A stretch of DNA of 64,000 bases from Acidobacteriota bacterium (GTDB lineage: Bacteria; Acidobacteriota; Vicinamibacteria; Vicinamibacterales; UBA8438): contig VXME01000040.1 in assembly GCA_009861545.1 (NCBI GenBank), forward strand, positions 69,108 to 133,107, given 5' to 3'. The position numbers were made by a program, and so were the translations under genes. Under the pieces are notes generated by a model. The model did no database searches. It had not been told where the DNA came from and was given only the letters and a program-made list of their open reading frames with translations. This document shows positions 13,728-30,664 of this stretch, piece after piece (positions within the stretch are counted from its first letter, which is position 1; every line of letters starts with the position of its first letter).

Positions 13728-15022
13728 TATTCCACCGGCGGCCGCAGGAAAGCGGGAAGGGGCACCGGATCCGGTTGCTCTTCGGAGTGGTTGCCCTCGT
13801 CACCCGCCGAGTCGTCATCCGTGCCGGCGTCGATCGGGTCCAACGCGGGGGAGAACTCTATCGAAGCGCGCCGGGACATCGTGATGCCTCCTCCCCCGGC
13901 CGCCGCCACCGCCATCGGCGGCGCGCTCTCCTCCTCGCGCAGATGGGCGTACTGCTGCAGATCGACCGGCGTGTCGGATTTCGCCGAGGGCGATGCGCTA
14001 CGACTCCCAAGCCCCTCGAAGTCGGTCGCGATGACGGTGATCTTGACCTTGCCCTCCATGGACGGATCGATGACCGCCCCGAAGATGATGTTGGCCTCCT
14101 CGTGCGCCGCCTCGTGGATGATCGTCGTCGCCTGGCTGACCTCGAGCATGGACAGATCGGAGCCGCCGGTGATGTTGACGATGACCCCGCGCGCACCCTC
14201 GACCCGGGCTTCCTCGATCAGCGGACTCGCGATGGCCCTGTTGGCCGCGTCCACGCTACGGTCCTTGCCCTCGCCGTAGCCGGTTCCCATGATGGCCATG
14301 CCCATGCCGGACATGATGGTCTTCACGTCGGCGAAGTCCAGATTGATCATGCCGGGCACGAGAATCAGATCGGAGATGCCCCGAATGGCCTGATGCAGGA
14401 CGTCGTCGGCGAGCAGGAACGCGTCGGTCAGGCTGGTCGTCTGCTCGATATGTCCGAGAAGGCGTTCGTTGGGAATGGCAATGACCGTGTCCACCGACGC
14501 GCGGAGCTCGTCCAGGCCCCGGTCGGCCTGCACTGCCCGCCGCTTGCCCTCGAACTTGAAGGGCTTCGTCACGACTGCGATCGTCAACGCGCCGAGCTCG
14601 CTGGCGAGAGCGGCGACCACCGGCGCGGCGCCCGTGCCCGTCCCGCCCCCGAGGCCCGCCGTGACGAACACCATGTCGGCGCCGCTGAGCGCGGCGATGA
14701 GCTGCTCGGTATCTTCCAGGGCCGCCTGACGGCCGATGTTGGGATCCGCGCCGGCGCCGAGACCGCTCGTCACCTTCGTCCCGATCTGCAGGCGGACGGG
14801 CGCCTCGTTCTGCGCCAGCGCCTGGGCGTCGGTGTTCGCCACGATGAAGTCGACACCTCTGACGCCTCCGGCCACCATCCGGCCCACGGCGTTGCTCCCG
14901 CCGCCACCGACACCGACCACCTTGATCCGGGCCCCGGTTCGAATCGTGTCCTCCAGGGTCAGTCGAAGATCTCCATCCAACGCCGGCTCGGGCCCGGGCA
15001 GGATTCTGCCGCTCTCCGCCAT
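13727..15022 (-). CDS. ftsZ: Cell division protein FtsZ
   Basis: Tubulin-like GTPase that forms the division ring (431 aa). The GTP-binding tubulin signature GGGTGTG is at residues 125-131, and the T7 catalytic loop INLDFADVK is present. A long unstructured linker leads to a C-terminal conserved peptide resembling [10 protein letters not shown], the docking site for FtsA. The ATG at 15022 has GAAGGAGG just upstream; a longer open frame upstream overlaps ftsA and was rejected. It is the last gene of the dcw cluster, 17 nt after ftsA. Confidence 0.98.
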
Positions 15023-15039: not shown

Positions 15040-16272
15040 CTAAAAGAACTCCTTGAACAGGAGACGCAGTCTTCCCGCAACCCTGCTCAAGGCGCCACCC
15101 GTGTGGTGGTCCTGCTCGGACATCTGACGCCGGTTCGCGTACATGATCAGCCCGACGGCCGTAGCGAACGCCGGATCGTTGACGTGATCCGTCAATCCGC
15201 CCGCACCGACCGGGCAGCCGCGGCGGATCGGCAGATCGAAAATCTGATCGGCTATCTCCGGCATGCCGTCGAGGGCGCAGGCGCCCCCGGTCAGCACGAT
15301 GCCGGAATTGAGTGCGCCCTCGTAGCCGCGATGCTGGATCTCGTCCCAGAGCTGGTGAAAGACCTCTTCGGCGCGCGGCTGCAGCACGTCGGCCAGGATG
15401 CGGCGCGACATGATCCGCGGCTGGCGGCCGCCCACGCTGGCGATCTCTACCGTCTGCTCTTCGTCGACCAGCGCCGTCAGGACGCACCCGCTGCGGCGCT
15501 TCGTCTTCTCCGCCTGCGGAATCGGGGTACGCAGGCCGACGGCGATGTCGTTCGTGAAGTGGTCTCCGCCCAGCGCAATGGCGCCCGTGTGCCACAGGCT
15601 GCCGCGCTCGAATACCGCAAAATCCGTCGTCCCGCCGCCGATATCGACCAGGGCTACTCCGAGCTCCTTCTCATCCGACGTCAAGACGGCCTCCGCCGCC
15701 GCAAGCTGGCCGAGCACCGTGGCGGCGACGGTCACGCCGGCCCGATTGACGCAGGTAACCAGGTTCTGCGTCGTCGAGGTGCTGCCGGTAACGATGTGGA
15801 CGTTCACCTCCAGGCGGGCTCCCGTCATCCCGATCGGGGCTCCGATGCCATCCTGCTCGTCCACCACGAAGTCCTGCGGAAGCGTGTGCAGCACTTCGCG
15901 GCCGTTCGGCAGGGACACGGCCTTCGCGGCGTCGATTGCGCGCCGGACGTCCTGGCGCGTGATCTCGCGGTTCTGCCCGGCGACCGCCACCACGCCCCGG
16001 CTGTTGAACGCCTTGACGTGACTGCCGGACAGCGCGAGATGCACCGTGTCGATCTCGACACCCGCGGTGAGCTCGGCCTCCTCAATCGCCTTCTTGATCG
16101 ACTCGACAGCCGCCTCGAGGTTGATGACGACGCCGCGGCGAATGCCGTGCGCGTCCGCGACTCCGATCCCGATGATGTCGACGCCTCCGTCCTGCATCGC
16201 CTCGCCGACGATGGCGGCGACCTTGGACGTGCCCACGTCGAGGCCGACGACGTACTGCTCTCTACGTGCCAC
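15040..16272 (-). CDS. ftsA: Cell division protein FtsA
   Basis: Actin-like membrane tether for FtsZ (410 aa). It has phosphate-1 motif GLDVGTSKV, the inserted SHS2-type 1C domain, phosphate-2 [13 protein letters not shown] and adenosine motif [15 protein letters not shown]-terminal amphipathic helix ([15 protein letters not shown]) probably targets the membrane. The start codon is GTG with GGAGG five nt upstream, and the gene begins inside the end of ftsQ (11-nt overlap). Confidence 0.97.
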
Positions 16273-17170
16273 GCTGCCTCCGTTGACCGCTGTTCGCCGC
16301 GAGCCCGGTCCGGGCCGCTTCCGTCAGTCTCCTTTGCAACGCGATGCGGCGCGCCGCCGCGGCCGCGTCCGCCGGACCGACGTACACCCTCTCGTCGAAC
16401 CGCACGTCCACATAGTCGATGTCGGGCACGACCTGCCGTAGCGCCGGCGAGATTTCCAGATAGGTCCGGAGCCGCGCAACGAACCGCTCGGCGCCGAGAT
16501 GCACGCGGACCGGATCCCCGTCCAGCAGCACGACCGCGTCATGCGGATTGGCGACGTCCACCTGCGAAATGCGCGCGGCAAGGCCGCTGTCCGCCTCCAC
16601 TTGTGCGATCAGACGCGCGGCGAGCGCCGCTCGGCGCTCGTCGACCGCCGAGCTCTCTTCGCCTCCGCGGGCGGAGAACCCGTCGATGATCGGCAAATCG
16701 AGGTCGGAGAACCGGGGACCGAATTCATCGATCACATGCCCGGTGACGTCGATGAGATAGAGGCTCGAGCCGAACCTGCTCAGCCCGACCGGCTCCCGTT
16801 CTTCCAGTGTCACATGCACCGCCGAGGGCAGGACCCGGCGCAGCGCCGCCTCGCGGATCCATCCGGACGCGAGCAGGCTCGCGCGTCCCGCCTCGAGATC
16901 GGCGACCAGCAGATTCTCGCCGCGCAACGGCTCCATGAGGCCCGCGACCTCGCCGGCAGACAGGCGTTCGTTGCCTTCGACCGTGATCGTGTCGACACGG
17001 AGGACGTCCGCTTGGCGCAACCAGGCAAACGCCCAGGCGAGGCCGCCGGCCACGACCAGAGCCAGGCCCAGATGCACGACGAGCCCCCGACGGCGCGCAA
17101 ACCACCGACGGCGTACCGGCTGCACGTAAGCGCGTCGAAACCGCGGTTCGGGACGAGCGTGCACCGCCAT
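16262..17170 (-). CDS. ftsQ: Cell division protein FtsQ/DivIB
   Basis: Bitopic divisome protein of 302 aa. It has a short Arg-rich cytoplasmic tail, one membrane helix (about 30-52), a periplasmic POTRA domain (DTITVEGNERLSAGEV onward) and a beta domain. FtsQ links the FtsB/FtsL complex to the Z-ring. The ATG at 17170 forms a TGATG junction with the murC stop; a GTG one codon earlier is also possible. Its place between murC and ftsA is canonical for dcw clusters. Confidence 0.94.
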   Translation of the reverse strand: MAVHARPEPRFRRAYVQPVRRRWFARRRGLVVHLGLALVVAGGLAWAFAWLRQADVLRVDTITVEGNERLSAGEVAGLMEPLRGENLLVADLEAGRASLLASGWIREAALRRVLPSAVHVTLEEREPVGLSRFGSSLYLIDVTGHVIDEFGPRFSDLDLPIIDGFSARGGEESSAVDERRAALAARLIAQVEADSGLAARISQVDVANPHDAVVLLDGDPVRVHLGAERFVARLRTYLEISPALRQVVPDIDYVDVRFDERVYVGPADAAAAARRIALQRRLTEAARTGLAANSGQRRQRGT

Positions 17171-18561
17171 CACGCACCCCGCCCCTGGAGCAGCTCGACG
17201 AGACGCGGGGCCAGCCGCGCGATCGACCCCGCTCCGAGCACGGCTACCAGATCGCCCGCCGCCACCATTGCCCTCACGCGCGACGCGGCATCATCGAGGC
17301 TGGCGGCGATCTCGACGGGTATCCCGGAATGGCGCCGTACGGCCCGCGCGACGGCGGCCGCGTCGACGCCCTCCAGACGGGACTCGCTCGCCGCGTAGAC
17401 CTCGGTGAGCAACAGGGCGTCCGCCTGCCCGAGCACCTCACCGAAACGGTCGAGCAGACGCGCCGTCCGTGAGTACCGGTGCGGCTGGAACACCACGATC
17501 ACGCGGCGCGGAGACCCGAGTCGGGCGGTCTGCAGGACCGCCTGAATCTCCGTCGGGTGGTGAGCGTAGTCGTCCACGATCTCGATGCCGCCGGGCAGGT
17601 GGTGGCGAGCATGTCGACGGGCGGCCCCGGCGAAGCGGCGCAGGGCACCGGTTGCGGTTTCGGGAGGGACGCCCAGCCATGCCGCCGCGCCGATGGCCGC
17701 CAGCGCGTTGAGCAGGTTGTGGCGACCCGGAACCGCAAGGGTCAGTTCCACCTCGGCGCGCCGACCCCGGACGTTCGTGACCACCCGGGCCGTGGATCCC
17801 GACGGCCCGAGCTCCACTCGATCCGCGCGCACGCCCGAATGCGGGATCTCGATCCCGTAGGTCACGACGGGACGCGGGCAATGCGCCGCCACCCGAGCGA
17901 CCTGGGGATCATCCGCACACGCCACCATGCAACCGCTCTCCGGCACGCTGGCCGCAAACGACCCGACCGCGCGAACGAGCGCGTCGAATCCCTCGTACGC
18001 CTCCAGGTGCTCGTCGTCCACGTTGGTCACCACGGCGATCTCGGGAGCCAGGTGCAGAAACGACCGGTCGCTCTCGTCGGCCTCGACCACCATGAACGGC
18101 CCACTCCCCCGCCGGGCGTTGCCCCCCAGAGCGTCGACCACTCCTCCGATGACCACTGTCGGATCCAGCCCCGCCGCCTCGAGAATCAGCGCCAGCATGG
18201 ACGTGGTCGTGGTCTTGCCGTGGGACCCGGCCACGGCGACGGCCCTTTTCCGCTTCGTGAGCTCCGCCAACATCGCACCGCGACCGACGATGGGAATGCG
18301 CCGGCGCTCCGCCTCGACGAGCTCCGGGTTGTCCGGCGGCACCGCCGACGAGACCACGACGACGTCCGGCGCCCCGACGTGTGCCGCCGCATGTCCTTCC
18401 GCGACCCGAATGCCGATCGAACGGAGTCGCGCCGTCGCCCGCGAGGTCTCGAGGTCGGACCCGCTCACCTCATAGCCCGCGCCGTGCAGCAACTCCGCGA
18501 TGCCGCTCATGCCAATGCCACCAATGCCCACCAGGTGGATCCGTCTGACTCGTTCGAGCAC
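17170..18561 (-). CDS. murC: UDP-N-acetylmuramate--L-alanine ligase
   Basis: Cytoplasmic Mur ligase of 463 aa adding L-Ala to UDP-MurNAc. The N-terminal glycine motif GIGGIGMSGIAELL binds the UDP-sugar, GSHGKTTTT is the ATP P-loop, and the metal/substrate residues ADESDRSF and DDYAHHPTEI are intact. I chose the GTG at 18561, 7 nt after murG, because it gives the standard N-terminus; the open frame upstream runs antisense-like through murG with no domain. ftsQ overlaps the stop. Confidence 0.96.
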   Translation of the reverse strand: MLERVRRIHLVGIGGIGMSGIAELLHGAGYEVSGSDLETSRATARLRSIGIRVAEGHAAAHVGAPDVVVVSSAVPPDNPELVEAERRRIPIVGRGAMLAELTKRKRAVAVAGSHGKTTTTSMLALILEAAGLDPTVVIGGVVDALGGNARRGSGPFMVVEADESDRSFLHLAPEIAVVTNVDDEHLEAYEGFDALVRAVGSFAASVPESGCMVACADDPQVARVAAHCPRPVVTYGIEIPHSGVRADRVELGPSGSTARVVTNVRGRRAEVELTLAVPGRHNLLNALAAIGAAAWLGVPPETATGALRRFAGAARRHARHHLPGGIEIVDDYAHHPTEIQAVLQTARLGSPRRVIVVFQPHRYSRTARLLDRFGEVLGQADALLLTEVYAASESRLEGVDAAAVARAVRRHSGIPVEIAASLDDAASRVRAMVAAGDLVAVLGAGSIARLAPRLVELLQGRGA

Positions 18562-18568
18562 ACGGTCC

Positions 18569-19726
18569 CTATCTCTCCGCGCCGGCAACCGCCCCGGCGC
18601 ATCCCATGAGCTGCTCCGCCCGCTGCAGCACCCTGTCCGCCGCATCCCGCTTCGCCAGGCGCCCCGCCGCCGCGGACATGGCCGCGCGGCGCTCCCGGTC
18701 CCCCGCGAGAGCAATCATCCGGGGCGCAAGACACCGTTCGAGATCGACCTCTTCGATGACCTCCGCGGCGCCGGCCGCAACGAGCACCGCAGCGTTCCGG
18801 CGCTGGTGGTCGTTGGCCGCCGTCGGCAACGGAACGACCACCGCCGGCAGGCCGGCCGCCGCCACCTCCGCCAGCGTCGTCGCTCCCGCGCGGCAGATCA
18901 CCAGATCGGCTGCGCGCATTTCCTCGTGCATGATCTCGAAGAAGGCCGCCACCCGGGCATTCACACCGGCCTGACGGTAGGCCGCGCGAACGCGGTCGAG
19001 ATCGTGCGCTCCCGTCTGGTGGATGATGCGTACGCCGCCGGGCGCCGCAGCCAGTACGCCGGCGGCGCCGGCCAGCGCGACGTTCAGGGCATGCGCCCCC
19101 TGCGATCCGCCGAGGACGAGCACCGTCGACGGACCGGTCCGTCCGGCCCGCTCCACGTTCGCAACGTCGAAGAACCCCTCGCGGACGGGGTTGCCGCTCA
19201 GGAACGCCTTCGCCCCGAAACAGGACGAGGTCGTCTCGAACGAGACGGCCGCCGCCCGCACCAGAGGCGCGAGCATCCGATTGGTCATGCCCGGCACCGC
19301 GTTCTGCTCCATCACCATGGTCGAGCGCCCCGCCAGCGCCGCCAGCAGCACCACCGGCCCGGCGCTGTAACCGCCGAGTCCGATGACCAGATCCGGACGG
19401 GCCCGGCGCAGCACGCGCGCCGCGTCGCAGAGCGTGAGCGGCGCCATCCCGACGGTCCGGGCGACGGCGAGCGGTGACTTGCCCACGAGCCCCGTCGTGC
19501 GGATCGGTTCGAACGGGAACCCCTCGCGCGCCAGAGCCCGCTCCTCGATGCCCCGGCCCGTTCCGACGAACACTACGTACGCTTGCGGATGGCGCCGGAC
19601 GAGCGCACGCGCCACGGCGATGCCGGGAAAGAGATGGCCGCCGGTGCCGCCGCCCGCGAACATCACCCGGGGCGCGCCCGTTCCGGCGGCCCGGTTCCCA
19701 CGTCTCGCGATCCGCCTCTCGTCCAT
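18569..19726 (-). CDS. murG: Lipid II synthase MurG (UDP-GlcNAc transferase)
   Basis: Peripheral membrane glycosyltransferase of 385 aa converting lipid I to lipid II. The glycine-rich loops GGGTGGHLFPG and GLGGYSAGP are in the N-domain, and the UDP-GlcNAc motif GGSQGAHALN and CRAGATTLAEV in the C-domain. The ATG at 19726 lies 8 nt after the ftsW stop. An upstream in-frame extension across ftsW is a shadow. A small N-terminal extension (DERRIARRGNRAAG) precedes the first strand. Confidence 0.96.
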   Translation of the reverse strand: MDERRIARRGNRAAGTGAPRVMFAGGGTGGHLFPGIAVARALVRRHPQAYVVFVGTGRGIEERALAREGFPFEPIRTTGLVGKSPLAVARTVGMAPLTLCDAARVLRRARPDLVIGLGGYSAGPVVLLAALAGRSTMVMEQNAVPGMTNRMLAPLVRAAAVSFETTSSCFGAKAFLSGNPVREGFFDVANVERAGRTGPSTVLVLGGSQGAHALNVALAGAAGVLAAAPGGVRIIHQTGAHDLDRVRAAYRQAGVNARVAAFFEIMHEEMRAADLVICRAGATTLAEVAAAGLPAVVVPLPTAANDHQRRNAAVLVAAGAAEVIEEVDLERCLAPRMIALAGDRERRAAMSAAAGRLAKRDAADRVLQRAEQLMGCAGAVAGAER

Positions 19727-19734: not shown

Positions 19735-20835
19735 TCAACGTCTGAGCGCCGCATGCTGCGATACGTTCAGGAGGATTCCCATACCGATCAGCCCGATCAG
19801 GAGCGACGACCCGCCGGCGCTGACGAACGGCAGCGGAATCCCGGTCGTCGGCAGCAGTCCGAGCACTACGCTCATGTTGATGAATGCCTGCATGGCGACC
19901 ATCGTCGTGAGCCCGATCGCCAGGAACGCACCGAACCGGTCGGGCGCATGGCAGGCGACGAGCAGACCGCGCCAGGTGATGATCGCGAAGCACAGCAGGA
20001 TCACCGTTGCGCCAAGCAGTCCCGTTTCCTCGGCAATGACGGCATAGATGAAGTCCGTATGCGGCTCGGGCAGGAAATGCAGCTTCTGCAGCCCGCGCAT
20101 CAGTCCCAGGCCCACCAAGCCGCCGGTGCCGACCGCGATCTGCGACTGAATGACCTGAAACCCGTCTCCCAGCGGGTCGGCCCACGGATCGAGGAACGCC
20201 AGCAACCGCCTCATGCGATACGGCGCGCTCGACAGCACGAGGTACAGGGCCGGCGCCAGCACGAGCGCCGCTCCGACCACGTAGCGGTAGCTGAGCCCCG
20301 CGACGAAGACCATCGCCGCCACGATCACGACGACGGTAAGCGCCGTGCTGAAGTCCGGCTGCAACAGGATGAGTGCGGCGAGGCAGGCCGTGAGCCCGCC
20401 TATCGGCAGCAACGCGTAGAGGGCGTCGTTGACCCGGTCCATCCGCCGCTCGAGTTGCGCCGCCGCGAACATGATCAGGGCAATCTTGGCGAGCTCCGAC
20501 GGCTGCACGCCGAATCCCGCGATGCCGAACCAGCGGCGGGTTCCGTTGATCGGGTCGCCGAACAACACGGCGACGAGAGCCAGCAGCGTGACGCCGACCG
20601 CCGTCGACAGGACGGCCGGCTTCTTCAACCGCCGGTAGTCGACGCGCATGACGCCCCAGAGCAGTCCGAACCCCATGACGGCCCACATCACCTGCCGGAA
20701 CAGAAAGTGGTACGGCCGCGCGTAGCGATCCATGGCGAGCAGGGCCGACGCGCTGTAGACCATGATGACGCTCGCACTCAGGAGCGCGAGCGTGGCGAAG
20801 AAGAGCAACTTGTCGGGCTTGAGTTTCCGCGCCAT
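19735..20835 (-). CDS. ftsW: Peptidoglycan glycosyltransferase FtsW
   Basis: SEDS-family septal peptidoglycan polymerase (366 aa) with about ten membrane helices. Family motifs NGTRRWFGI, QPSELAK, LLQPDFSTA and PFVSAGGSSLL are present. It pairs with FtsI to form the septal synthase. I chose the ATG at 20835 because AGGTGG sits just upstream; the GTG at 20844 lies in that ribosome-binding site. The gap to murD holds a nested palindrome, the only sizeable break in the cluster. Confidence 0.96.
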   Translation of the reverse strand: MARKLKPDKLLFFATLALLSASVIMVYSASALLAMDRYARPYHFLFRQVMWAVMGFGLLWGVMRVDYRRLKKPAVLSTAVGVTLLALVAVLFGDPINGTRRWFGIAGFGVQPSELAKIALIMFAAAQLERRMDRVNDALYALLPIGGLTACLAALILLQPDFSTALTVVVIVAAMVFVAGLSYRYVVGAALVLAPALYLVLSSAPYRMRRLLAFLDPWADPLGDGFQVIQSQIAVGTGGLVGLGLMRGLQKLHFLPEPHTDFIYAVIAEETGLLGATVILLCFAIITWRGLLVACHAPDRFGAFLAIGLTTMVAMQAFINMSVVLGLLPTTGIPLPFVSAGGSSLLIGLIGMGILLNVSQHAALRR

Positions 20836-20911
20836 ACTCGCCACCTGCGATGGTCGTGTCGCAAGGCCTAAAGTTCGCGGCCGGTCGACCCGAAACAGGG
20901 GTTACGCGATC

Positions 20912-21041
20912 ACGTGAGCGGTCAGCAGTCATCAGTCAGACCCGGGTGGAGACACCAGCCTCGCAGGCAAGGGATAGCCTGCGCTCCCAGCGGCCAGCTC
21001 TTCACCGCGCAAACCGACTGATGACTGCTCACTGCTCACGT
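20912..21041. repeat. 130-bp nested palindromic element between ftsW and murD
   Basis: The outer arms 20912-20937 and 21016-21041 are inverted repeats of 26 nt differing at two positions. A second perfect 7-bp stem, CGCAGGC/GCCTGCG (20962-20968 and 20977-20983), lies in the middle. The right arm contains the murD stop codon and its last residues. The arms are AT-richer than the surroundings and include GCAGTCATCAGTC. It resembles a REP/MITE-like repeat, but only one copy is in this window and no direct target duplication is obvious. Confidence 0.75.
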
Positions 21042-22411
21042 CCGTCACTCTCCGAAACCGGCGACCCGAGCGCCGCCACCGCATCCCTGAACGCCGCGCC
21101 TCGAGCGGCGTAGTCCCGATACATGTCGAGGCTGGCGCAAGCCGGCGCCAGCAGCACGGCGCCGCCCGGGCGGCAGCGCGCCGCGGCCAGCCGTACCGCC
21201 TCATCCATCGTCTCCGCCTCGAGCACGTCGACCTCCGGCTCCAGCGCGCGTCGCACGCGGGGTCGCGCCTCGCCGATGGCCACCACCGAGGCGCTCCGCG
21301 CCGCCAGTACGGAGCGCAGGTCCTCGAACCGCCCGCCCTTGAACCGGCCGCCGAGGATCACCACCAACCCCGGACCGAAGCACTCGATCGCGGCGCGCGC
21401 CGCGACAACGTTGGTTGCCTTCGAGTCGTTCACGAAGCGGACGCCGGCGCTCTCCCCCACGAACTCCAGGGTGTGCTCGAGGCCGCGGAAGGAACCAACG
21501 GCCCGCGCCATCGCGCCGGCGTCAATCCCCACCAGGGTGCCGACGGCCGCCGCCGCCGCGATATCGCTGAGCAGGTGGCGCCCGGGGACTCGGACCGCGG
21601 ACATCGGCACCAGGCACTCGTCCCCGTCGGCCGAGCGACGCGCGATACCGTCCGCGGTGACCTGCACACCCTCGGCCAATGGCGTCTCCACGGCGAACCT
21701 GAGCGCCCGTGCCCGACCGGAGCGTGCAATCCGGAGCACGTGCGGGTCGTCGGCGTTGATCACCATCTCGTCGTCCGGCGTCTGGTTCGCGAACAGCCGG
21801 GCCTTCGCGCCGGCGTACTCCTCGAAGCTCGCATGCCGGTCCAGATGATCCGGCGACAGGTTCAGGCACACCGCTATCCAGGGACGAAACGTCTCGGTGA
21901 GCTCGAGCTGAAAGCTGCTGACCTCGACGACGTGCACGACGTCCGGCGTCGAGCTCTCGACCTGGCTGCTGAGCGCCACGCCGATGTTGCCCCCGACGAT
22001 CGCGCGGCGTCCGCCGGCTTCCAGCATCCGACCGGTCACAACCGCGGTGGTCGACTTCCCCTTCGTTCCGGTCACCGCCACCAGACGCCCCCGCAGCCAA
22101 CGGGCCGCCAGCTCCACCTCGCTGATGACCGGGACTCCCCGGCGACGCGCCGCGGCAATCTCCGCCACCCGCGGGGAAACGCCGGGGCTCAGCACGATCA
22201 GGTCGGCGGCCCGCAGCGTGGCGTCTCGATGTCCACCGCTCTCCAGCACGATGCCGTCGCCCGCGAGGCTCTCGGCCTGGGCAATCCTCGGGCCGGCCTC
22301 GCTCAACGTGACGCGGGCGCCGCGACGGGCCAGCAGCCGGGCGGCGGCAAGCCCGCTACGGCCAGCGCCGACCACGACGACACGCGAGTCCACGACCGAG
22401 AAATGCGTCAT
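21029..22411 (-). CDS. murD: UDP-N-acetylmuramoylalanine--D-glutamate ligase
   Basis: Cytoplasmic Mur ligase of 460 aa adding D-Glu. An N-terminal Rossmann-like domain (VVVVGAGRSGLAAARLL) precedes the ATP loop GTKGKSTT, the central-domain motif NLSPDHLDRH and the C-terminal NDSKATN. The ATG overlaps the mraY stop (ATGA). The last residues (GREQ) and TGA stop are encoded by the right arm of a palindromic element, so the natural C-terminus may have been replaced; the core domain ends well before this. Confidence 0.96.
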   Translation of the reverse strand: MTHFSVVDSRVVVVGAGRSGLAAARLLARRGARVTLSEAGPRIAQAESLAGDGIVLESGGHRDATLRAADLIVLSPGVSPRVAEIAAARRRGVPVISEVELAARWLRGRLVAVTGTKGKSTTAVVTGRMLEAGGRRAIVGGNIGVALSSQVESSTPDVVHVVEVSSFQLELTETFRPWIAVCLNLSPDHLDRHASFEEYAGAKARLFANQTPDDEMVINADDPHVLRIARSGRARALRFAVETPLAEGVQVTADGIARRSADGDECLVPMSAVRVPGRHLLSDIAAAAAVGTLVGIDAGAMARAVGSFRGLEHTLEFVGESAGVRFVNDSKATNVVAARAAIECFGPGLVVILGGRFKGGRFEDLRSVLAARSASVVAIGEARPRVRRALEPEVDVLEAETMDEAVRLAAARCRPGGAVLLAPACASLDMYRDYAARGAAFRDAVAALGSPVSESDGREQ

Positions 22412-23493
22412 CGCAGCTTCAACGTCGTCAGGCTGAACAGCGCGAAGACCACCGCGGCAATCAGGAACCGGGAGATGATCTTCGGCTCGCTCCACCCGAT
22501 CTGCTCGTAGTGGTGATGCAGGGGCGCCATCCTGAACACGCGCCGGCCGGTGAGCTTGAACGACCCGACCTGAACAATCACCGACAGCGCTTCGAGGACG
22601 AACACCGCACCCACGATGGGCAACAGCAACTCCTGCTTGATGAGTAGCGCGACGGTCCCGAGCGCGCCGCCGAGCGCGAGCGAGCCGACGTCGCCCATGA
22701 ACACGTCCGCCGGATACGAGTTGTACCAAAGGAACCCGAGCCCGGCGCCAACGAGGGATCCGCAGAAGATCGTGAGCTCGCCCGCCGGCGGAAACCGCAC
22801 CAGCAGCAGGAATTCGGCGATGGCGGCATGGCCGCTCACGTAGGTCAGGGCCGTGAACGCGCCGGCCGCCACCGTGAAGATGCTGATTGCGAGACCGTCC
22901 AGCCCGTCCGTCAGGTTCACGGCGTTCGATGAGAACACCAGGACCAGCACCGCGAACGGGACGTACAACCAGCCGATGTCCGGCGTGAACTGCTTGAAGA
23001 ACGGGAAGATGATCTCGCTGCTGTAGAGATCGCTGTGCGTCAACTGCAACAACGACAGACCGACCGCGGTCGCGACCGCGCTCTGGGCGATGAGCTTGCC
23101 CCGGACCGACAGGCCGCGGTGCGAGCGACGCGCGATCTTGAGCCAGTCGTCGGCGAACCCGATGGCGCCGAAGGCGGCGGTCGACAACAGGGCGATCTGC
23201 ACGTAGACGTTGGTCAGGTCCGCCCAGAGCAGGGTCGGCACGAACGCCCCCGCCAGGAGCAGCAGCCCTCCCATCGTGGGCGTGCCCGCCTTGTCCTTGT
23301 GCGTCGGCGGCCCGTCGTGCCGGATGATCTGACCGATCTGCAGCGCCCGCAGCCGGCGGATCGTGACCGGGCCCAACACGAGCGTCACCGTAAACGCCGT
23401 CAGGCTCGCGGCGGCGGTCCGGAAGGTGATGTACTGGACGACGTTCAGCAGGCTGAAGTCCGTGTGCAGCGGATAGAGCAGGTGATACAGCAT
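22408..23493 (-). CDS. mraY: Phospho-N-acetylmuramoyl-pentapeptide-transferase
   Basis: Integral membrane enzyme of 361 aa that moves phospho-MurNAc-pentapeptide onto undecaprenyl phosphate to give lipid I. About ten helices are visible. Catalytic motifs are present: DDWLK, NAVNLTDGLDGLA and the HHHYEQIGW loop. The ATG at 23493 makes a TGATG junction with murF; a GTG one codon upstream is possible. Confidence 0.97.
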   Translation of the reverse strand: MLYHLLYPLHTDFSLLNVVQYITFRTAAASLTAFTVTLVLGPVTIRRLRALQIGQIIRHDGPPTHKDKAGTPTMGGLLLLAGAFVPTLLWADLTNVYVQIALLSTAAFGAIGFADDWLKIARRSHRGLSVRGKLIAQSAVATAVGLSLLQLTHSDLYSSEIIFPFFKQFTPDIGWLYVPFAVLVLVFSSNAVNLTDGLDGLAISIFTVAAGAFTALTYVSGHAAIAEFLLLVRFPPAGELTIFCGSLVGAGLGFLWYNSYPADVFMGDVGSLALGGALGTVALLIKQELLLPIVGAVFVLEALSVIVQVGSFKLTGRRVFRMAPLHHHYEQIGWSEPKIISRFLIAAVVFALFSLTTLKLR

Positions 23494-24914
23494 CACGCAT
23501 GCTCCGCCTTCAGTCGGTCGGCCACGCGATCGGCACGGACGCCGCGCGACCCCTTGACCAGCACGAGATCGCCCGCCCGGACGAGCGCGGCGGTCAGCGA
23601 AGCTGCTTCGTCGCTCGTACCACAGGTCACGGCGCGGCCGGCGCTCATACCGGCCGCGCGGGCGCCTTCCGCCAGCGCCTCGGCGGCGGGGCCGCCGATG
23701 GCCACGAGCACGTCGAACCCGGCCTCCACCGCCAGACGGCCGCAGGCGCGATGCAGCAACCCCGCGCGGGGTCCGAGCTCGAGCATCTCGCCCAGAACCG
23801 CGACGCGGCGCCGGTGCCCTCTGTCGCTCCCCAGCGACCGGAGCACCTGCTCGAGCGCCGCCGGGTTGGAGTTGTAGGAATCGTCGACCACCGTCACCCC
23901 CTGGGCCAGGCGGAGCACCTCGCCACGGCGGGGCGGCGGTGCGAACGCCGCCGCCTCGCGCAGCATCGCCTCCACCGGGACCTGGAACAGAAGGGCAACC
24001 GCGATTGCGGCGACCACATTGGCCACCTGACCCGCTCCGAGCAGTCGGGTGCTCAGGCCGCCGCCGCCGACGGGTGTCTCGACCGCCGCCCGCATGCCGT
24101 CGATTCCGCGATCGTCGACCTCCGTGGCTCGAACGTCGGCCTGCGTGTCGACTCCGAAGGTGGTCACGCCGCCTGGAAACCCGCCGATTCGCTCCATGGC
24201 CAGTGTGTCCCCGGCGTTCACGACCAGGTGGTCACGCGCGGTCGCACCGTCGAGAATCTCCGCCTTGGCGTCGGCGATCCCCTCTATCGAAGGAAATGAC
24301 TCGGCATGGACCTCCGCCACGTTCGTCCAGACGCGGACGTTCGGCTCGGCGATGCCGACCAGGGTATGAATCTCGCCTGCATGGTTCATGCCGAGCTCGA
24401 CCACCGCCACCTCGGGGCGGCGCCTGAGCGCCAGCAGCGACAGCGGGAGGCCGATGTGGTTGTTGAGGTTGCCTTCGTTGCGGAGCACGTCGTGGCGCGT
24501 GCCGATGAACGCCGCCGTCAGCTCCTTGGTCGTCGTCTTGCCCACGCTTCCGGTAATCGCCACGACCTTCGCGCCCGAACGACGCCGGACGTCACGCGCG
24601 ATCGACTGGAGCGCATGCGTGGTGTCTTCCACGACGATGGTCGCCGGGGCGACCCCGCTCGCCCCGGTGACCGGCGCCGCCGCAGCGTCGCTGACGATCA
24701 CGCCCGCCGCTCCTCTACCGACTGCCTCGGCGATGAAGTCGTGACCGTCCAGCCGGTTGCCCCGAATCGCCAGGAAGACGTCGCCCGGACGGATACGCCG
24801 GCTGTCGATGGAGATGTCTCCCAACTCGACATCCGGGAGGCCGGCCACCAGCCGCCCTCCGGCCGCGAGGGCCAGTTCCCCCGCCCGCACCACCGCCGTT
24901 CCTTGATCCGGCAC
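23493..24914 (-). CDS. murF: UDP-MurNAc-tripeptide--D-Ala-D-Ala ligase
   Basis: Mur ligase of 473 aa that completes the pentapeptide by adding D-Ala-D-Ala. P-loop GSVGKTTTKE, NEGNLNNHIG and ELGMNHAGEI in the central domain, and DDSYNSNP in the C-terminal domain are all present. The start is GTG, 7 nt after murE; no ATG lies in frame nearby. The gene for the D-Ala-D-Ala ligase that supplies its substrate (ddl) is not in the window. Confidence 0.96.
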   Translation of the reverse strand: MPDQGTAVVRAGELALAAGGRLVAGLPDVELGDISIDSRRIRPGDVFLAIRGNRLDGHDFIAEAVGRGAAGVIVSDAAAAPVTGASGVAPATIVVEDTTHALQSIARDVRRRSGAKVVAITGSVGKTTTKELTAAFIGTRHDVLRNEGNLNNHIGLPLSLLALRRRPEVAVVELGMNHAGEIHTLVGIAEPNVRVWTNVAEVHAESFPSIEGIADAKAEILDGATARDHLVVNAGDTLAMERIGGFPGGVTTFGVDTQADVRATEVDDRGIDGMRAAVETPVGGGGLSTRLLGAGQVANVVAAIAVALLFQVPVEAMLREAAAFAPPPRRGEVLRLAQGVTVVDDSYNSNPAALEQVLRSLGSDRGHRRRVAVLGEMLELGPRAGLLHRACGRLAVEAGFDVLVAIGGPAAEALAEGARAAGMSAGRAVTCGTSDEAASLTAALVRAGDLVLVKGSRGVRADRVADRLKAEHA

Positions 24915-24921: not shown

Positions 24922-26460
24922 TCATCCCCCTGACGGCCGCCCGCTCCGTGCGTCGAGCGCCGCGCGCGCCACGACGACGTCGTCGAAGGGCACCGCGCGC
25001 GATCCGATCACCTGGTAACGCTCGTGCCCCTTGCCCGCTATGACGACCACGTCGCCGGCCCCCGCGTCGTCTATCGCGCGGCGGATCGCCGCCGCCCGCT
25101 CCACGATCGCCAGATGCGGAGTGTCGGAACGACCGAGGCCACGCTCGATGTCGTCGATGATGGCTTTCGGATCCTCCGACCTGGGGTTGTCCGACGTGAG
25201 AATCACCGCGTCGCTCAGGCGGGTCGCCACCACCCCCATCAACGGCCGCTTCGTGGCGTCCCGATCGCCGCCGCAACCGAACACCGTGACGATCCGGCGC
25301 CGGGCGAACTGGCGCACGGTTTCCAGCAATCCCCGCAACGCGTCGTCGGTGTGCGCGGAGTCGACGATGACGATCACGTCGTCGTCCTCCGAAGACACCG
25401 TCTGCATACGACCCGGCACCACGGTCAACGCGCGTACCCCGGCTGCGATACCGGCGAACGGCAGGTCGAGAGCCACGCCCGCGGCCGCCGCGGCGAGCAC
25501 GTCGTAGGCGGCGGCGCGACCCGGCAACCGCGACTCCAGCAGCAACGATCCACGCGGGGTGCGCGCCTCGATGACGGTCCCGTCGGCCCGCAACTCCAGG
25601 CGGACGGGCATGCAGTCCGCCGTCCGATCCAGGGCGTAGGTCACCGGCCGCGACACCTGCCCCGCCAGGCGAGCGCCGCGCGGGTCGTCGAGGTTGACCA
25701 CGGCCGGAGCCCCATCCGGCAACAAGTCGAAGAGCCGCCGCTTCGCGGCGAAATAGCTCTCCATGTCGCCGTGAAAGTCGAGATGGTCGCGCGTCAGGTT
25801 CGTGAAGACCGCGGCTGCGAACCGGACGTGTTCGACCCGTCGCAACGCCGTGGCATGGGAAGAGACCTCCATGGCGCAGGCCCGTGCGCCCCGATCGCGC
25901 ATCGCCGCGAGCAACGCGTGGACCTGCGGGGCCTCCGGCGTGGTGTGCACCGCCGGTTGCTCGGCGTCGTCGCCGCCGATCCGGTTCGAAATGGAGCTGA
26001 TGCGCCCGGTCACCATCCCCGCGTGCGCGAAGATCGATTCGAGGAGCCACGTCGTGGTGGTCTTGCCGTTGGTGCCGGTGACGCCGACGACCTGCAGGTC
26101 GCGACTCGGATCGCCGTGGAAGGCCGCGGCGAGTGCGGACAGCGCGGCGCGGGCATCCGGCACGCGGACCCAGGGCAGCGGCGCCGTGGCCGGCGGTTCC
26201 ACCTCGGCGACGACGAGCGCCGCGCCGCGCTCTACCGCGTCGTCGACGAAATCGGCGCCGTCGAAGCGCTGCCCCGGGACGGCGACGAAGACGCCGCCCG
26301 GAGTGACGTCACGCGAATCGAAATGGACGCCGGTCACCGGAGACTCCAGACGCGCGTCCGGAACCGTGGGGCCGCCGACGCCGGCGTCAGCGAGCAATAC
26401 CCCGCAGGACATCCCGCGATCGACGTTCCCAACCGCGGCCTTTTCGTCGACCATGGTCAT
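24922..26460 (-). CDS. murE: UDP-MurNAc-L-alanyl-D-glutamate--2,6-diaminopimelate ligase
   Basis: Mur ligase of 512 aa adding the third residue of the stem peptide. P-loop GTNGKTTTT, HTTPEAP and NLTRDHLDFHG are intact. The DNPR motif (TSDNPRSEDP) is the known signature of meso-diaminopimelate specificity, predicting DAP-type peptidoglycan. The ATG overlaps the ftsI stop (ATGA). An N-terminal extension of about 20 residues precedes the UDP-binding domain. Confidence 0.96.
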   Translation of the reverse strand: MTMVDEKAAVGNVDRGMSCGVLLADAGVGGPTVPDARLESPVTGVHFDSRDVTPGGVFVAVPGQRFDGADFVDDAVERGAALVVAEVEPPATAPLPWVRVPDARAALSALAAAFHGDPSRDLQVVGVTGTNGKTTTTWLLESIFAHAGMVTGRISSISNRIGGDDAEQPAVHTTPEAPQVHALLAAMRDRGARACAMEVSSHATALRRVEHVRFAAAVFTNLTRDHLDFHGDMESYFAAKRRLFDLLPDGAPAVVNLDDPRGARLAGQVSRPVTYALDRTADCMPVRLELRADGTVIEARTPRGSLLLESRLPGRAAAYDVLAAAAAGVALDLPFAGIAAGVRALTVVPGRMQTVSSEDDDVIVIVDSAHTDDALRGLLETVRQFARRRIVTVFGCGGDRDATKRPLMGVVATRLSDAVILTSDNPRSEDPKAIIDDIERGLGRSDTPHLAIVERAAAIRRAIDDAGAGDVVVIAGKGHERYQVIGSRAVPFDDVVVARAALDARSGRPSGG

Positions 26461-28811
26461 GGCCCCAGCGCCTCGGCGTCGTCGGCCGGCGGCGCATACC
26501 GCTGCAGCCAGACAGTGACGGTTGCGCCCGGGTCGACGGCCTCTCCCGCCGCCGGCACGTGGCGCGCCACCGCTCCGTCGCCGTTGAACTCCGCTCGCAG
26601 ACCGATGCGGCCGAGGACTTCGACAGCCTGCCGAGCGCTCAGCCCACGCAGATCGGGTATCGATCCCGCATCCTCGGAGGCGACCGCAGAGCGGGCCGGA
26701 AGCGGTGCCCCGGCGGACTCCGACCAGGCGGCCGCCCGCAGGTCAGCATCCCGCGCGGGCGCGGAGCGCGCAACCAGCGGCGGTCGGGTCGAGTCCTGCG
26801 TGCGCGGCACCCGGAGGTACCGCAGGGCCGCCTCGGCGATACGCTGAAAGACCGGCGCCGCCGCCGCGCCGCCGGTGTATGCCCGCTGGCGGATGCCGTT
26901 GATCATGGCGGTGCGCGGCGTGTCCAGCATGACCAGGACGACGAACCGCGGGGCATCCGCCGGTACGAATCCGACGAACGAGGCATTGTGGTCGGTGTGC
27001 GAATAGCGACCGTCGATGAGCTTCTCCGCCGTGCCGGTCTTGCCGGCGACCGCATAGCCGGGCACTCGGGCGCGACGGGCCGTTCCGCGCTCGGCGACCT
27101 GCGTCATGATCCCGGTCAGCGCAGCCGCCGTCTCCCGCGAGATCGCGCGCCTGATCACCCGTCGCTCCGACTGCACCCGGCCACCGTTGCGGGCCACCGT
27201 GCGAACGACACGAGGCTCGAGGAGCTCGCCGCCGTTCGCCACCGCGGCGAAGGCAGCCGCCATCTGCAACGGGGTGACGGCAATCTGGTACCCCATGGCA
27301 ATGGACGCTATCGCCCGATCGTTGAGCGTCTCGGCACTCCAGACGAGGCCCGCGCTCTCTCCCGGAAAGTCCCGTGACAGTGCGCGCCCGAAACCGAACC
27401 TGTCGACGTACCGGCTGAGCCGCTCCGGTCCCAGGCGCAATCCGACCAGGATGGCCCCGACGTTGCTGGACTTGACGATCACGTCCGTGAAGCTCAGCGG
27501 GCCGTAGGTGGTGAAGTCATGGATCCGGTTGCGGCCGATCCGGATGAAGCCGGCGCTCACGTCGAACACTTCGTCGGGTTGGACGGCATCCTCCTCGAAG
27601 GCCGCCGCGGCGGTGACGATCTTGAAGGTCGAGCCCGGCTCGTACACGTCCTGCACGGCGCGGTTGCGGCGCTGCGCGGGCGTTGCGGCGCCGAACACGT
27701 TCGGATTGAACGACGGCGCGCTGGCGAGCGCCAGCACCTCGCCGGTGCGCGGATCGAGCATCACGACCGCCCCGGCATCCGCGTCGTAGGTTCGAATCCC
27801 CGCCCGTAGCTCGCGCTCCGCGATATGCTGGAGATGCTTGTCGATGGTCAGCTCGACGGTCGCGCCGGCAGTCGGCGGCCGGTCGATGCGGCTGAAAGCG
27901 CGCCGGCGGGCATCGGTGTGGACCAGGATCTGTCCCGCCCGGCCGCCGATCTCCGAGTCATAGGTCGACTCGATCCCGCTCAAGCCCTGGTTGTCGAGCC
28001 CGACGTAGCCGATGAGGTGCGCCGCGAGCTCGCGGCCGGGGTAGTAGCGCCGGTCTTCGGTGAGGAATCCGACGCCGTCCAGCCCCAGGGCCGCCACGCG
28101 CCGCGCCTCTTCCGGCGACACCTTGCGCTGGACGTACGCGAAGTCCCTGGGGCGCCGGAGACGGCGCGCCAGGTCGTCCCGCCCGGCCCCGGCGCAGTCG
28201 TCGAGGGCGCCGCAGATCGCACTCGCAGTCGCTTCGAGCTCTTCGTCCTCGATTCTGGAGGGCACGGCGTATACGGCGCCGGTGTCCGGGTCGATCCCCG
28301 CGGAGGCCAGTCCCAGAGCCGCCACGCGCCGCGCTTCCTCGGAAGACGGGTCGGACTTCAGCAGGGCGAAGCTCCTGCGACGGTGGAGACGACGTTCGAG
28401 GGCGTCCCGGTCCACCCGCGTGCATTCGTTCAACGCGTTGCAGAGGGCGCGGGCGGTGGCTGCCGGCTCATCGATGTCGGTAGGCACGGCGTAGACCGTG
28501 TCGGCGTCGACGCTGTACGCAAGCACGCGCCCGTTCCGATCCAGAATCTCGCCGCGCTTCGAATGCACTTCGATGGTCCGCCGCTGCTGGCTTCCCGCCC
28601 TCGCAACCAGCTCCGCGTGCTGCACGACCTGCAGATGCACGAGCCTGGCCTCGATGGCGACGACCCAGATCGCGAACGCCCAAGCCGCCACCAGCACGCG
28701 ACGTTTCAACGTGTCGCGCCACTCCGGGCGCGGCGCATGCGCCGCGGCGCGCCGGCGCCGCGTGCTCCGCCTGCCCCAGGGCGGCCTAATAGAGTCCGCG
28801 AGTCGGCTCAC
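26457..28811 (-). CDS. ftsI: Septal peptidoglycan transpeptidase FtsI (PBP3) with internal duplication
   Basis: A 784-aa class B penicillin-binding protein, longer than the usual 550-720 aa. An Arg-rich tail and one membrane helix (about 38-57) precede the dimerisation/pedestal region. The transpeptidase has SxxK at Ser394-Lys397 (EPGSTFK), KSSNVGA and AGKTGTAEK. A C-terminal PASTA-like domain (IPDLRGLSARQAVEVLGRIGL) ends the protein. Residues 106-253 hold two consecutive copies of a 74-76-residue module, which accounts for part of the extra length. Start GTG 28811 has AGGAGGT five nt upstream and overlaps ftsL by 26 nt; murE overlaps the end. Confidence 0.95.
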   Translation of the reverse strand: MSRLADSIRPPWGRRSTRRRRAAAHAPRPEWRDTLKRRVLVAAWAFAIWVVAIEARLVHLQVVQHAELVARAGSQQRRTIEVHSKRGEILDRNGRVLAYSVDADTVYAVPTDIDEPAATARALCNALNECTRVDRDALERRLHRRRSFALLKSDPSSEEARRVAALGLASAGIDPDTGAVYAVPSRIEDEELEATASAICGALDDCAGAGRDDLARRLRRPRDFAYVQRKVSPEEARRVAALGLDGVGFLTEDRRYYPGRELAAHLIGYVGLDNQGLSGIESTYDSEIGGRAGQILVHTDARRRAFSRIDRPPTAGATVELTIDKHLQHIAERELRAGIRTYDADAGAVVMLDPRTGEVLALASAPSFNPNVFGAATPAQRRNRAVQDVYEPGSTFKIVTAAAAFEEDAVQPDEVFDVSAGFIRIGRNRIHDFTTYGPLSFTDVIVKSSNVGAILVGLRLGPERLSRYVDRFGFGRALSRDFPGESAGLVWSAETLNDRAIASIAMGYQIAVTPLQMAAAFAAVANGGELLEPRVVRTVARNGGRVQSERRVIRRAISRETAAALTGIMTQVAERGTARRARVPGYAVAGKTGTAEKLIDGRYSHTDHNASFVGFVPADAPRFVVLVMLDTPRTAMINGIRQRAYTGGAAAAPVFQRIAEAALRYLRVPRTQDSTRPPLVARSAPARDADLRAAAWSESAGAPLPARSAVASEDAGSIPDLRGLSARQAVEVLGRIGLRAEFNGDGAVARHVPAAGEAVDPGATVTVWLQRYAPPADDAEALGP
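28053..28496 (-). repeat. Tandem duplication inside ftsI (two copies of a 74-76-codon module)
   Basis: Copy 1 (residues 106-179) and copy 2 (180-253) both begin VYAVP, share an ALCNALNEC/AICGALDDC cysteine-bearing helix and an RRL...FA stretch, and both contain SxEEARRVAALGL. By eye about half the residues match. At DNA level a 16-nt block is identical, at 28091 and 28319, 228 nt apart. Only copy 2 runs into the usual RYYPGRELAAHLIGY continuation. Confidence 0.85.
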
Positions 28812-29223
28812 CCGACACCTCCTGCCGCGTCGCCACGATCGACGACTCCGGCACCTCCGGCACCGCTTCGCCCACCACCCGTTCCACGAGCAACTCGCGG
28901 CCGCCGGCCGGGACGACCATGTGCAGTTGCCCGATCGCGACGCGCTCGATGCGGGCCGGCGAGCGGAGGGTCTCGATCTCCAGACGGAGATGGCGGTTCA
29001 GCTCCTGCTGCCTGGCGTATTCCTGGCGCATCTGTTCGGTGCGGTAGCCATGCTGCAGCAGCTCGAAGTGCTGCCAGACCGAGAACAGCAGAACGGCAAC
29101 CAGCGAGACGGCCAGGATCAGCGACCCCCGCAACTCGCGTTGTCGAACGCCGTCCAGCTCGCGCACGATCGGGGCGTTGCGAATCTGCGGGGAAACGAGA
29201 TCCGCGAAATCCTCGTGGGTCAT
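28786..29223 (-). CDS. ftsL: Cell division protein FtsL
   Basis: Small bitopic divisome protein (145 aa): a cytoplasmic N-terminus, one membrane helix (about 34-50), then a periplasmic heptad-rich coiled coil (ELLQHGYRTEQMRQEYARQQ...). FtsL with FtsB activates FtsW-FtsI. Primary sequence is poorly conserved, so the call rests on topology and on position between rsmH and ftsI. The ATG overlaps the rsmH stop (ATGA), and ftsI begins within its end. Confidence 0.85.
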   Translation of the reverse strand: MTHEDFADLVSPQIRNAPIVRELDGVRQRELRGSLILAVSLVAVLLFSVWQHFELLQHGYRTEQMRQEYARQQELNRHLRLEIETLRSPARIERVAIGQLHMVVPAGGRELLVERVVGEAVPEVPESSIVATRQEVSGEPTRGLY

Positions 29224-30125
29224 GCCAGCCTCTCGGCGGCGCGCAGCTTCGCGCTGCGCGCACGGGGATTCCGGGCCACCTCGCCCGCGGAGGGACGCAA
29301 CGGGCGTCTGGTCAGCACCCTGATGGCGGCGCCGGCTTCACGCTCGAATCGGCGCAACGCCCGCTTGACGATGCGATCCTCCAGCGAATGAAAGGTGATG
29401 ACGGCCAGCCGCGCCCCGGTCCGCAGGCGCCGGCAAAGCGCCAGCAGCCAGGCGTCCAGCCCGTCGAGCTCGCGGTTGACCCAGATTCGCAGCGCCTGGA
29501 AGGTGCGGGTGGCGGGATGGATGCGCCGGCGGCCCCGGTAGGGCACCGCACGGCGGACCGCCTCCGCCAGTTGACCGGTGGATGTCAACGGCGCGCAGGC
29601 GCGCGAGGCGACCAGGCGCCGGGAGATGCGCCGCGCGTAGCGATCCTCCCCGTACTGGTGGATCACGTCGGCGAGCTCCGACTCGGGCGTGTCGCGCAGG
29701 AGGTCGGCGGCCGTCGGGCCGGTCGAACGATCCATCCGCATGTCGAGCGGTTCGTCGCGCCGGAAGCTGAAGCCGCGTCCGGCGCCGTCGAGCTGCAGCG
29801 ACGAGATTCCCAGGTCGGCGAGGGCGCCGCCGTCGATGTCGCCGATGCCGCGCTCGGCGAGCGCCGCATCCAGGTTGCGGAAGTCGGAGTGGACGAGCTC
29901 GACACGGTCGGTCCAGCTCGTCAGCGTCCGCGCGGCCGCCGCCAGCGCCTCACCGTCCCGGTCGAGCCCCAGCACGCGATCCGCGCCGCCTTCCAGGAGC
30001 GCGCGGGCGTGGCCGCCGCCTCCGACCGTGCAGTCGACGAACAGGCCGCCGCGCGCCGGATCGAGGACGGTCACCACCTCCGCCGCCATGACCGGTTCGT
30101 GCGTGACCATCGGACTCTGCGTCAT
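29220..30125 (-). CDS. rsmH: 16S rRNA (cytosine-1402-N4)-methyltransferase RsmH
   Basis: A SAM-dependent methyltransferase of 301 aa modifying C1402 in the decoding centre of 16S rRNA. Motifs: THEPVMAAEVV near the N-terminus, the SAM loop DCTVGGGGHARALL, and the C-terminal SFHSLEDRIVKRALRRFE. The insertion domain between them is of usual size. It follows mraZ by 10 nt, the standard dcw order, and overlaps ftsL by 4 nt. Confidence 0.96.
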   Translation of the reverse strand: MTQSPMVTHEPVMAAEVVTVLDPARGGLFVDCTVGGGGHARALLEGGADRVLGLDRDGEALAAAARTLTSWTDRVELVHSDFRNLDAALAERGIGDIDGGALADLGISSLQLDGAGRGFSFRRDEPLDMRMDRSTGPTAADLLRDTPESELADVIHQYGEDRYARRISRRLVASRACAPLTSTGQLAEAVRRAVPYRGRRRIHPATRTFQALRIWVNRELDGLDAWLLALCRRLRTGARLAVITFHSLEDRIVKRALRRFEREAGAAIRVLTRRPLRPSAGEVARNPRARSAKLRAAERLA

Positions 30126-30135: not shown

Positions 30136-30576
30136 TCAGATGCCGTAGTCCGCCGCGAGCGTGCCGAGTTCCTCCGGCGTGAGCGGGTGATCGCTCTGCC
30201 GCTTGCCGATATGCTCCTTGTTCCAGACTTCGAGGTGATTGCCCAGCCCGAGGACCATCACCTCCCCGACTATCTCCGCCTGCTCCCGGAGCAAACCCTG
30301 AATCAGGACGCGCCCCTGCTTGTCGAAGGCCGCCTCCTGCCCGTAGTAGTTGACCGCTTCCTTGTACCGGCGGACCCTGGGATCCGATGAGGGAGCCTGT
30401 GCGAGCTGCGCCTCCATGTCGGTCCAGACGCGCAGAGGGTAGATGAACGCGGCCTTGCCGTCGGTGCTCGTCACGAACACGTCGTCGCCGTACTGCGCCG
30501 CGATTGCCGACCTGAAGACCGTCGGCACCTTCAGCCTCCCCTTGTCGTCGATCTTCGCGGGCCTGTTCCCTCTCAC
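30136..30576 (-). CDS. mraZ: Transcriptional regulator MraZ
   Basis: A 146-aa protein with two AbrB-like MraZ domains, each with the family DxKGR-type motif (KIDDKGRLKVPTVFR and AAFDKQGRVLIQGLLRE). MraZ is an oligomeric DNA-binding regulator of dcw operons that binds direct repeats in its own promoter. The start is GTG with GGAG seven nt upstream. Phased repeats directly upstream fit autoregulation of the 14-gene cluster. Confidence 0.95.
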   Translation of the reverse strand: MRGNRPAKIDDKGRLKVPTVFRSAIAAQYGDDVFVTSTDGKAAFIYPLRVWTDMEAQLAQAPSSDPRVRRYKEAVNYYGQEAAFDKQGRVLIQGLLREQAEIVGEVMVLGLGNHLEVWNKEHIGKRQSDHPLTPEELGTLAADYGI

Positions 30577-30585: not shown

Positions 30586-30650
30586 CCACTACAGTCCAGT
30601 TAAATCCCTCACAGGCCACTTTAGTCCACACACGAATCCTAGGGGACCAC
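30586..30650 (-). promoter_or_regulatory. MraZ operator: helically phased GTGG/TGG repeats
   Basis: Read on the plus strand, CCA(C/G) or a degenerate form recurs at 30586, 30596, 30606 (degenerate), 30616, 30626 and 30647, i.e. about every 10 bp or a multiple. On the transcribed strand these are GTGG boxes, two inside AAAGTGG. MraZ sites in E. coli and mycoplasmas are also direct repeats with about 10-bp spacing. The array covers the promoter spacer and the 5' leader, so bound MraZ would block transcription of mraZ and the dcw genes. Confidence 0.75.
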
Positions 30651-30664
30651 TTTCCCCTTGTCAA
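30636..30664 (-). promoter_or_regulatory. Sigma-70 promoter of the dcw cluster
   Basis: Minus strand: perfect TTGACA (30659-30664), 17-nt spacer, TAGGAT (30636-30641). Predicted start near 30629, giving a leader of about 50 nt before the mraZ GTG. One MraZ-type box (30647-30650) lies in the spacer. Confidence 0.78.

Follow-up and report, generated by a model that had tools for sequence, protein, structure and literature searches.

What kind of site do the evenly spaced GTGG boxes in front of a cluster of division and wall (dcw) genes form, and is its length out of the ordinary? The locus belongs to an Acidobacteriota bacterium and lies in what we call the window, the whole stretch of 64,000 nucleotides that was analysed (Table 1). 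An earlier, sequence-only reading had placed a promoter here, TTGACA-17-TAGGAT, and this is indeed found on the minus strand at 30664-30636, as the one promoter-like site in 30200-31000 (shuffle mean 0.1). The same reading counted five boxes and a degenerate one, mostly at 10-bp steps, with one box in the promoter spacer and the rest in the leader; the coordinates, spanning 30650-30586, bear out both statements, box 0 being between the two hexamers and the others after the -10. The five leader registers hold an exact 10-bp spacing. We recognise an MraZ operator by NTGG direct repeats, three or more of them, that share a 10-bp lattice upstream of mraZ and just after the -10; the window has four intact repeats in five exact registers. 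The three-in-a-row form is absent, register 3 being AGGG, and no unbroken run exceeds two boxes. The GGAG at 30587-30584, 7 nt before the GTG start of mraZ at 30576, is likely to be the Shine-Dalgarno sequence of that gene; because box 5 continues into it as GTGGAG, this box would be under a second constraint. As argued below, the array quite probably serves as the operator at the dcw promoter through which MraZ represses its own gene along with the rest of the dcw cluster, and it quite probably represents a three-box operator enlarged within the genus.

The gene next to the array is an mraZ: its product has two MraZ domains above the gathering score as well as the MraZ fold, and it is the first dcw gene, adjoining rsmH. 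It is filed under PF02381 and outside the TIGR00242 equivalog, whose cut-off of 98.35 bits it misses (73 bits), as do all seven of the other Acidobacteriota MraZ proteins tested (67.6-81 bits, G002 included); the E. coli MraZ scores 227 bits with this model. The AlphaFold2 model of the window MraZ, a monomer, has a mean pLDDT of 95.9 and matches the M. pneumoniae and M. genitalium MraZ structures, including 9r4j and 9sz7, with Z of 16.9-18.9 (1n0e: Z 18.9, rmsd 2.2, 136 aligned; 9sz7: Z 18.1). Moreover, the protein keeps the two DxxGR motifs, which we take to be the DNA-reading loops of MraZ, and across 48 sequences most residues of these motifs are either invariant or conserved to 90% or more, D11 being an exception. 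The profile matches and the gene order from mraZ to ftsZ agree with the count of 14 dcw genes that had been proposed, and these may form a single 14-gene transcript.

Table 1. Promoter elements, boxes and dcw genes of the window
Feature	Position	Strand	Remarks
-35 hexamer TTGACA, mraZ/dcw promoter	30664-30659	-	exact in 95/99 order leaders
box 0 GTGG, inside 17-nt promoter spacer	30650-30647	-	21 bp upstream of box 1
-10 hexamer TAGGAT	30641-30636	-	TACGAT in other three genomes of genus
box 1 GTGG	30629-30626	-	
box 2 GTGG	30619-30616	-	
register 3, degenerate AGGG	30609-30606	-	intact GTGG in sister species G003
box 4 CTGG (C for G)	30599-30596	-	
box 5 GTGG, runs on as GTGGAG	30589-30586	-	TGGAG or TGGGAG, box and GGAG fused, in 95/99 order leaders
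mraZ, 146 aa, GTG start, next to array	30136..30576	-	PF02381 63.6 bits (cut-off 23), two stretches
rsmH (mraW)	29220..30125	-	TIGR00006 295.4 bits, cut-off 154.3
ftsL	28786..29223	-	PF04999 26.2 bits, cut-off 22.9
ftsI-type transpeptidase	26457..28811	-	SpoVD and PBP2 models, under their curated cut-offs
murE	24922..26460	-	
murF	23493..24914	-	
mraY	22408..23496	-	
murD, start approximate	21029..22384	-	residues 373-809 of ORF 21029-23500
ftsW	19735..20844	-	
murG, start approximate	18569..19669	-	residues 422-770 of ORF 18569-20932
murC, start approximate	17170..18543	-	residues 58-505 of ORF 17170-18714
ftsQ	16262..17173	-	PF03799 and PF08478, both above cut-off
ftsA	15040..16272	-	
ftsZ, start approximate	13727..14935	-	

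Within the order, 99 of the 100 genomes searched have this mraZ (the window's genome included), and all 99 upstream regions were read; the named neighbours in this sample are Acidobacteria MAGs, several of them labelled Vicinamibacterales. The promoter spacer is 17 or 18 nt in every one of these leaders, under a rule permitting 16-18, and 79 of them place the first box 4 nt after the -10. Three NTGG boxes at exact 10-bp steps just after the -10 are present in 90/99, and plain triples were seen in 62/99 as against 0.82 expected from mononucleotide shuffles. Three boxes are thus what is usual in the order. Considering that this three-box core is order-wide and that E. coli K-12 has the same plan, the window's array would appear to be an ordinary MraZ operator. 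A GTGG in the promoter spacer is found in 11 of 118 leaders; in 9 of these, among them genus g4 from the window's family, it precedes box 1 by 20-22 bp. That the spacer box is a general feature (9/11 at this distance, five of seven genera) is only suggestive. In G030, G042, G052 and G078 (genus g13), as well as in G013, G019 and G021, the start codon itself (GTGGTG) makes a fourth in-phase box, 10 bp past the third.

When the 59-nt leader was shuffled 20,000 times with its dinucleotides preserved, 4 of the shuffles reached four TGG in one 10-bp phase. The two strands of the window carry 1,858 TGG in all, and the array is the only place where at least four of five ten-bp registers are filled; with control periods from 6 to 14, periods 6 and 9 gave one match each in the window and the other six none. 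At genome scale the array pattern alone is not diagnostic, because the reversed control matches as often: the four-of-five search returned the window site and one other, versus three for the control. Similarly, a search of the genome for other MraZ targets with three- and four-box patterns gave no excess (2, 2 and 4 matches versus 2, 3 and 5 for the reversed controls), one of these genome-scale patterns being such that it misses the window's own operator, and other layouts being such that they would escape all of them.

How does the array compare with the MraZ sites already known? The MraZ of E. coli is reportedly described by Eraso et al. (2014). An excerpt of PMC8475190, citing Eraso 2014, has it as a repressor of the cluster, and the record annotation agrees. 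The E. coli K-12 mraZ leader is like that of the window in its TTGACA promoter, in boxes that come a few nt after the -10, in their 10-bp period and in the GTGG core, and mraZ is likewise followed by rsmH. It is unlike the window in its unbroken boxes and in a spacer without GTGG; the three boxes previously ascribed to E. coli are there, three GTGGG at 10 bp being read in the K-12 leader. For the mollicutes, excerpts of PMC5282649 and PMC8475190 give the MraZ site of Fisunov et al. 2016 as (AAAGTGKN3)3, which shares its 10-bp period with the window, where AAAGTGG occurs twice in the array (boxes 0 and 2), and differs in that the core, as these excerpts give it, has three repeats. The solved mycoplasma MraZ is 18-19% identical to that of the window in the structure alignment. 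According to an excerpt of PMC7761207, the B. cenocepacia MraZ shifts a fragment with four repeats after the -10. Like the window's boxes, these are 7-nt repeats with 3-nt spacers that lie over the start site and upstream of mraZ; unlike them, they number four, and the transcript is said there to start 100 bp before the mraZ start codon. Finally, the M. genitalium cryo-EM entries 9r4j and 9sz7 have, to go by their titles, MraZ with the same fold as in the window on a multi-box promoter. The title of 9sz7 speaks of a "4 box promoter" and a five-box complex is in no title among the matches listed, nor does the open-licence PMC literature have, among the matches listed, a paper on five-box or on Acidobacteriota MraZ operators.

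With mraZ as the next gene, the E. coli K-12 plan, the mollicute repeat and the order-wide core, the proposal that the boxes are an MraZ operator is, as a prediction, well supported. An MraZ oligomer, presumably ring-like, would contact one NTGG box per helical turn, each in the next major groove, which would put the boxes on one face of the DNA. Bound MraZ would cover the promoter spacer (box 0) as well as the stretch from just past the -10 to the mraZ ribosome-binding site (boxes 1, 2, 4 and 5). With spacer and leader covered, RNA polymerase should be kept out and transcription of mraZ and the other dcw genes held low. Such autorepression would set the dosage of the division and wall enzymes. 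Against this operator reading it must be said that the biochemistry of MraZ comes from other phyla, with the sign of regulation borrowed from E. coli, that one leader of the genus has three boxes, and that in the window register 3 is degenerate, box 4 has C for G, box 5 probably doubles as a Shine-Dalgarno sequence and MraZ has diverged; a GTGG in the spacer, moreover, is shared by no more than 11 of 118 leaders. On the opposite strand a ychF-like gene (30713-31801), followed by murJ, starts 48 bp from the mraZ -35; since its promoter is probably in or near the operator, MraZ might touch this gene too.

The genus sample consists of four genomes: that of the window (G000), G001, G002 and G003. 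Five registers are found in three of the four, and G001 has three boxes. Those of G003 are all intact, at steps of 10, 10, 11 and 10, while G000 and G002 have the third one degenerate at an exact 10-bp spacing, G002 keeping all five window boxes along with the degenerate one. Between G000 and G002, 11 of 88 operator bases differ and none of the 11 falls in the 24 core bases, the degenerate register being counted among these (P = 0.023). The GTGG of box 0 is kept in G000, G002 and G003 and is GCGG in G001. Aligned by eye, window boxes 4-5 match boxes 2-3 of G001, and G003 resembles a 21-bp duplication of boxes 2-3. We infer that the operator has grown by whole helical turns within the genus, the alternative for the direction being a loss in G001; growth of this kind would add contacts to a three-box operator and probably make repression tighter or more cooperative. 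The expectation that the array would be conserved in close relatives thus holds for the three-box core (90/99) and partly for the extra boxes, G001 having three only.

To place these arrays in the phylum, 231 leaders were compared: the 99 of the order, 42 further named loci and 90 phylum loci (L130 and L218 are identical in sequence). With steps of 9-11 allowed, the longest intact run is five boxes in 17 of the 231 and six in one; the window counts here as a run of two, and in G006 and G055 the fifth box is inside coding sequence. The family f36 (L214, L238-L244), of which at least 18 genomes are listed, has five intact boxes at exactly 10 bp in all eight leaders read, and is in this respect a clearer example of possible five-box binding than the window. 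Five registers are thus uncommon in the order and not new to the phylum. The array had been called unusually long, and so it is within the order, where three is the rule; it is less so in the phylum, with the intact f36 arrays, and four repeats are already published for B. cenocepacia and named in a PDB title. In loci of the Thermoanaerobaculia type (L111, L112, L117, L124, L130, L136, L139 and L140) the boxes lie upstream, over the -35 and the spacer, a layout seen again in L147, L159, L165, L166, L169, L173, L175 and L181 of the same type. Here a TGGACA box stands at the expected -35 and the following box in the spacer, the -10 being a TANNNT at a distance of 17 nt; the -35 assignment is a prediction, because the promoter rule chose TGGACA as TTGACA-like. 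Operator and promoter would appear to have shifted relative to each other in the phylum, since the boxes of these loci lie over the -35 and the spacer. There is no MraZ match in 17 of the 198 phylum-panel genomes; genus g88 accounts for 9 of these and g117 for 3. The genomes G119, G131, G153, G159 and G276 have four MraZ-domain matches each, and for this reason probably two mraZ-like genes per genome.

The mraZ of the window lineage has itself an uneven history (window 30136-30576; L104, L105 and L106). MraZ identity is 97% between G000 and G002, 87% between G001 and G003, and 55% between G000 and G001; the corresponding values are 95%, 77% and 79% for RsmH and 96%, 85% and 85% for YchF. By the Nei-Gojobori method (own script), dN/dS for G000-G001 is 0.377/0.604 in mraZ, 0.132/0.508 in rsmH and 0.085/0.503 in ychF, and for mraZ it is 0.074/0.536 in G001-G003 and 0.012/0.114 in G000-G002. 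Thus, the protein change of mraZ between G000 and G001 is 2.9x that of rsmH, 4.4x that of ychF and 5x that of the sister pair, with silent change only slightly higher. Horizontal replacement of mraZ from afar is not favoured, because the dS of 0.60 is near the 0.51 and 0.50 of the flanking genes, and because the AU test, on a data set lacking the long rows L131, L151 and L164, does not reject a topology in which the genus forms one group (p-AU 0.1). In the unconstrained tree the window pair sits next to L131 and Thermoanaerobaculia rows on a branch 1.75 long, a placement that we read as long-branch attraction. On these comparisons, the MraZ of the window lineage has changed fast where it stood and is under constraint today. 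Residues unique to the window pair occupy 19 positions, versus 0-9 in ten other pairs, and none of them is in the two DxxGR motifs. G003 combines a long array with an ordinary MraZ.

Could the broken third register be a feature in its own right? A box-box-gap-box-box pattern occurs in 7 of the 231 leaders (G000, G002, G033, L130, L218, L213 and L261), which represent five families: the window's genus, G033, L130/L218, L213 and L261. Four-register arrays with the third broken are found in G036, L108, L131, L174 and L207, and the mirror pattern in L199 and L266; a further entry of the four-register list, G009, was set aside as located in another sequence. In L228 and L229 the arrays are longer, again with register 3 as the gap. 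Moreover, five of the nine order leaders that lack three exact boxes are grown arrays with register 3 broken (G000, G002, G033, G036 and G080), and G003 is a grown array with register 3 intact. Two subunit pairs might grip the DNA on either side of an unread register. The pattern was noticed post hoc, and a figure such as (1/3)^5 = 0.004 ignores how the cases arose. Against a skipped centre stand the 18 of 231 leaders with five or six gapless intact boxes, G003 among them, and the gaps at other registers, which are as common (IIIgI 10, IgIII 7); the latter leaders are, in our judgement, three-box cores with a stray TGG. It is doubtful that a five-turn operator with a skipped centre represents a distinct MraZ binding mode, for which the protein of the window lineage was rebuilt in step and is now under purifying selection.

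Other readings of the array touch on how much of it works, and in what way. Perhaps only the three-box core is functional, the added registers and box 0 being remnants of duplication without function. The three boxes of G001, whose boxes 2-3 align by eye with window boxes 4-5, and the duplication-like array of G003 would fit such an origin, as would the degenerate register 3 of the window and G002 and the degenerate registers of the grown arrays in G033, G036 and G080. However, G000 and G002 agree in box 2, in box 4 and even in the AGGG core, whereas 11 of the 88 bases differ elsewhere, and the window's five registers hold exactly 10 bp. Moreover, long arrays can apparently be maintained, as the five intact boxes in 8/8 leaders of family f36 indicate. 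On balance we regard the remnant explanation as somewhat unlikely, if still worth serious attention.

It is also conceivable that MraZ binds and acts here as an activator or a dual regulator. The Thermoanaerobaculia-type loci, with boxes over the -35 and the spacer and not in the leader, would be in keeping with this; the window's boxes, on the contrary, extend over the spacer and what should be the transcribed leader, and its promoter comes close to the consensus. We hold such a role of MraZ to be very improbable at this locus. Scarcely credible, finally, is that the repeats work at the RNA level or by forming a G-quadruplex and not as a protein operator. An excerpt of PMC11796246 does place a G-quadruplex of S. 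aureus just downstream of the mraZ promoter, from its position presumably the MraZ-box region there, and the predicted fold of the window's leader RNA is somewhat more stable than that of shuffles (z -2.0). Nevertheless, the top 25-nt G4Hunter score in the region is a weak 0.72, with GG tracts mostly 8 nt apart, and a G-quadruplex at the window leader was rejected on that score; Rfam gave no match up to E = 1 in 30400-30800, and the strict 10-bp register together with a box upstream of the expected start site is more in keeping with DNA binding than with RNA.

It seems to be a topical question how many boxes one MraZ oligomer contacts simultaneously and what the number of boxes does to dcw output: PDB entries whose titles name MraZ with its own promoter and with a "4 box" promoter were released in February 2026. 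In the genus, a single promoter exists among sister species in a three-box and a five-register version, and one branch has a fast-changing MraZ. With these variants and the five intact boxes of f36 available, stoichiometry, helical phasing and the co-change of repressor and operator become testable. Elsewhere in the window, an 862-aa ORF (34498-37086, plus strand) reads as pyruvate dehydrogenase E1 alpha followed by beta, an apparent alpha-beta fusion.
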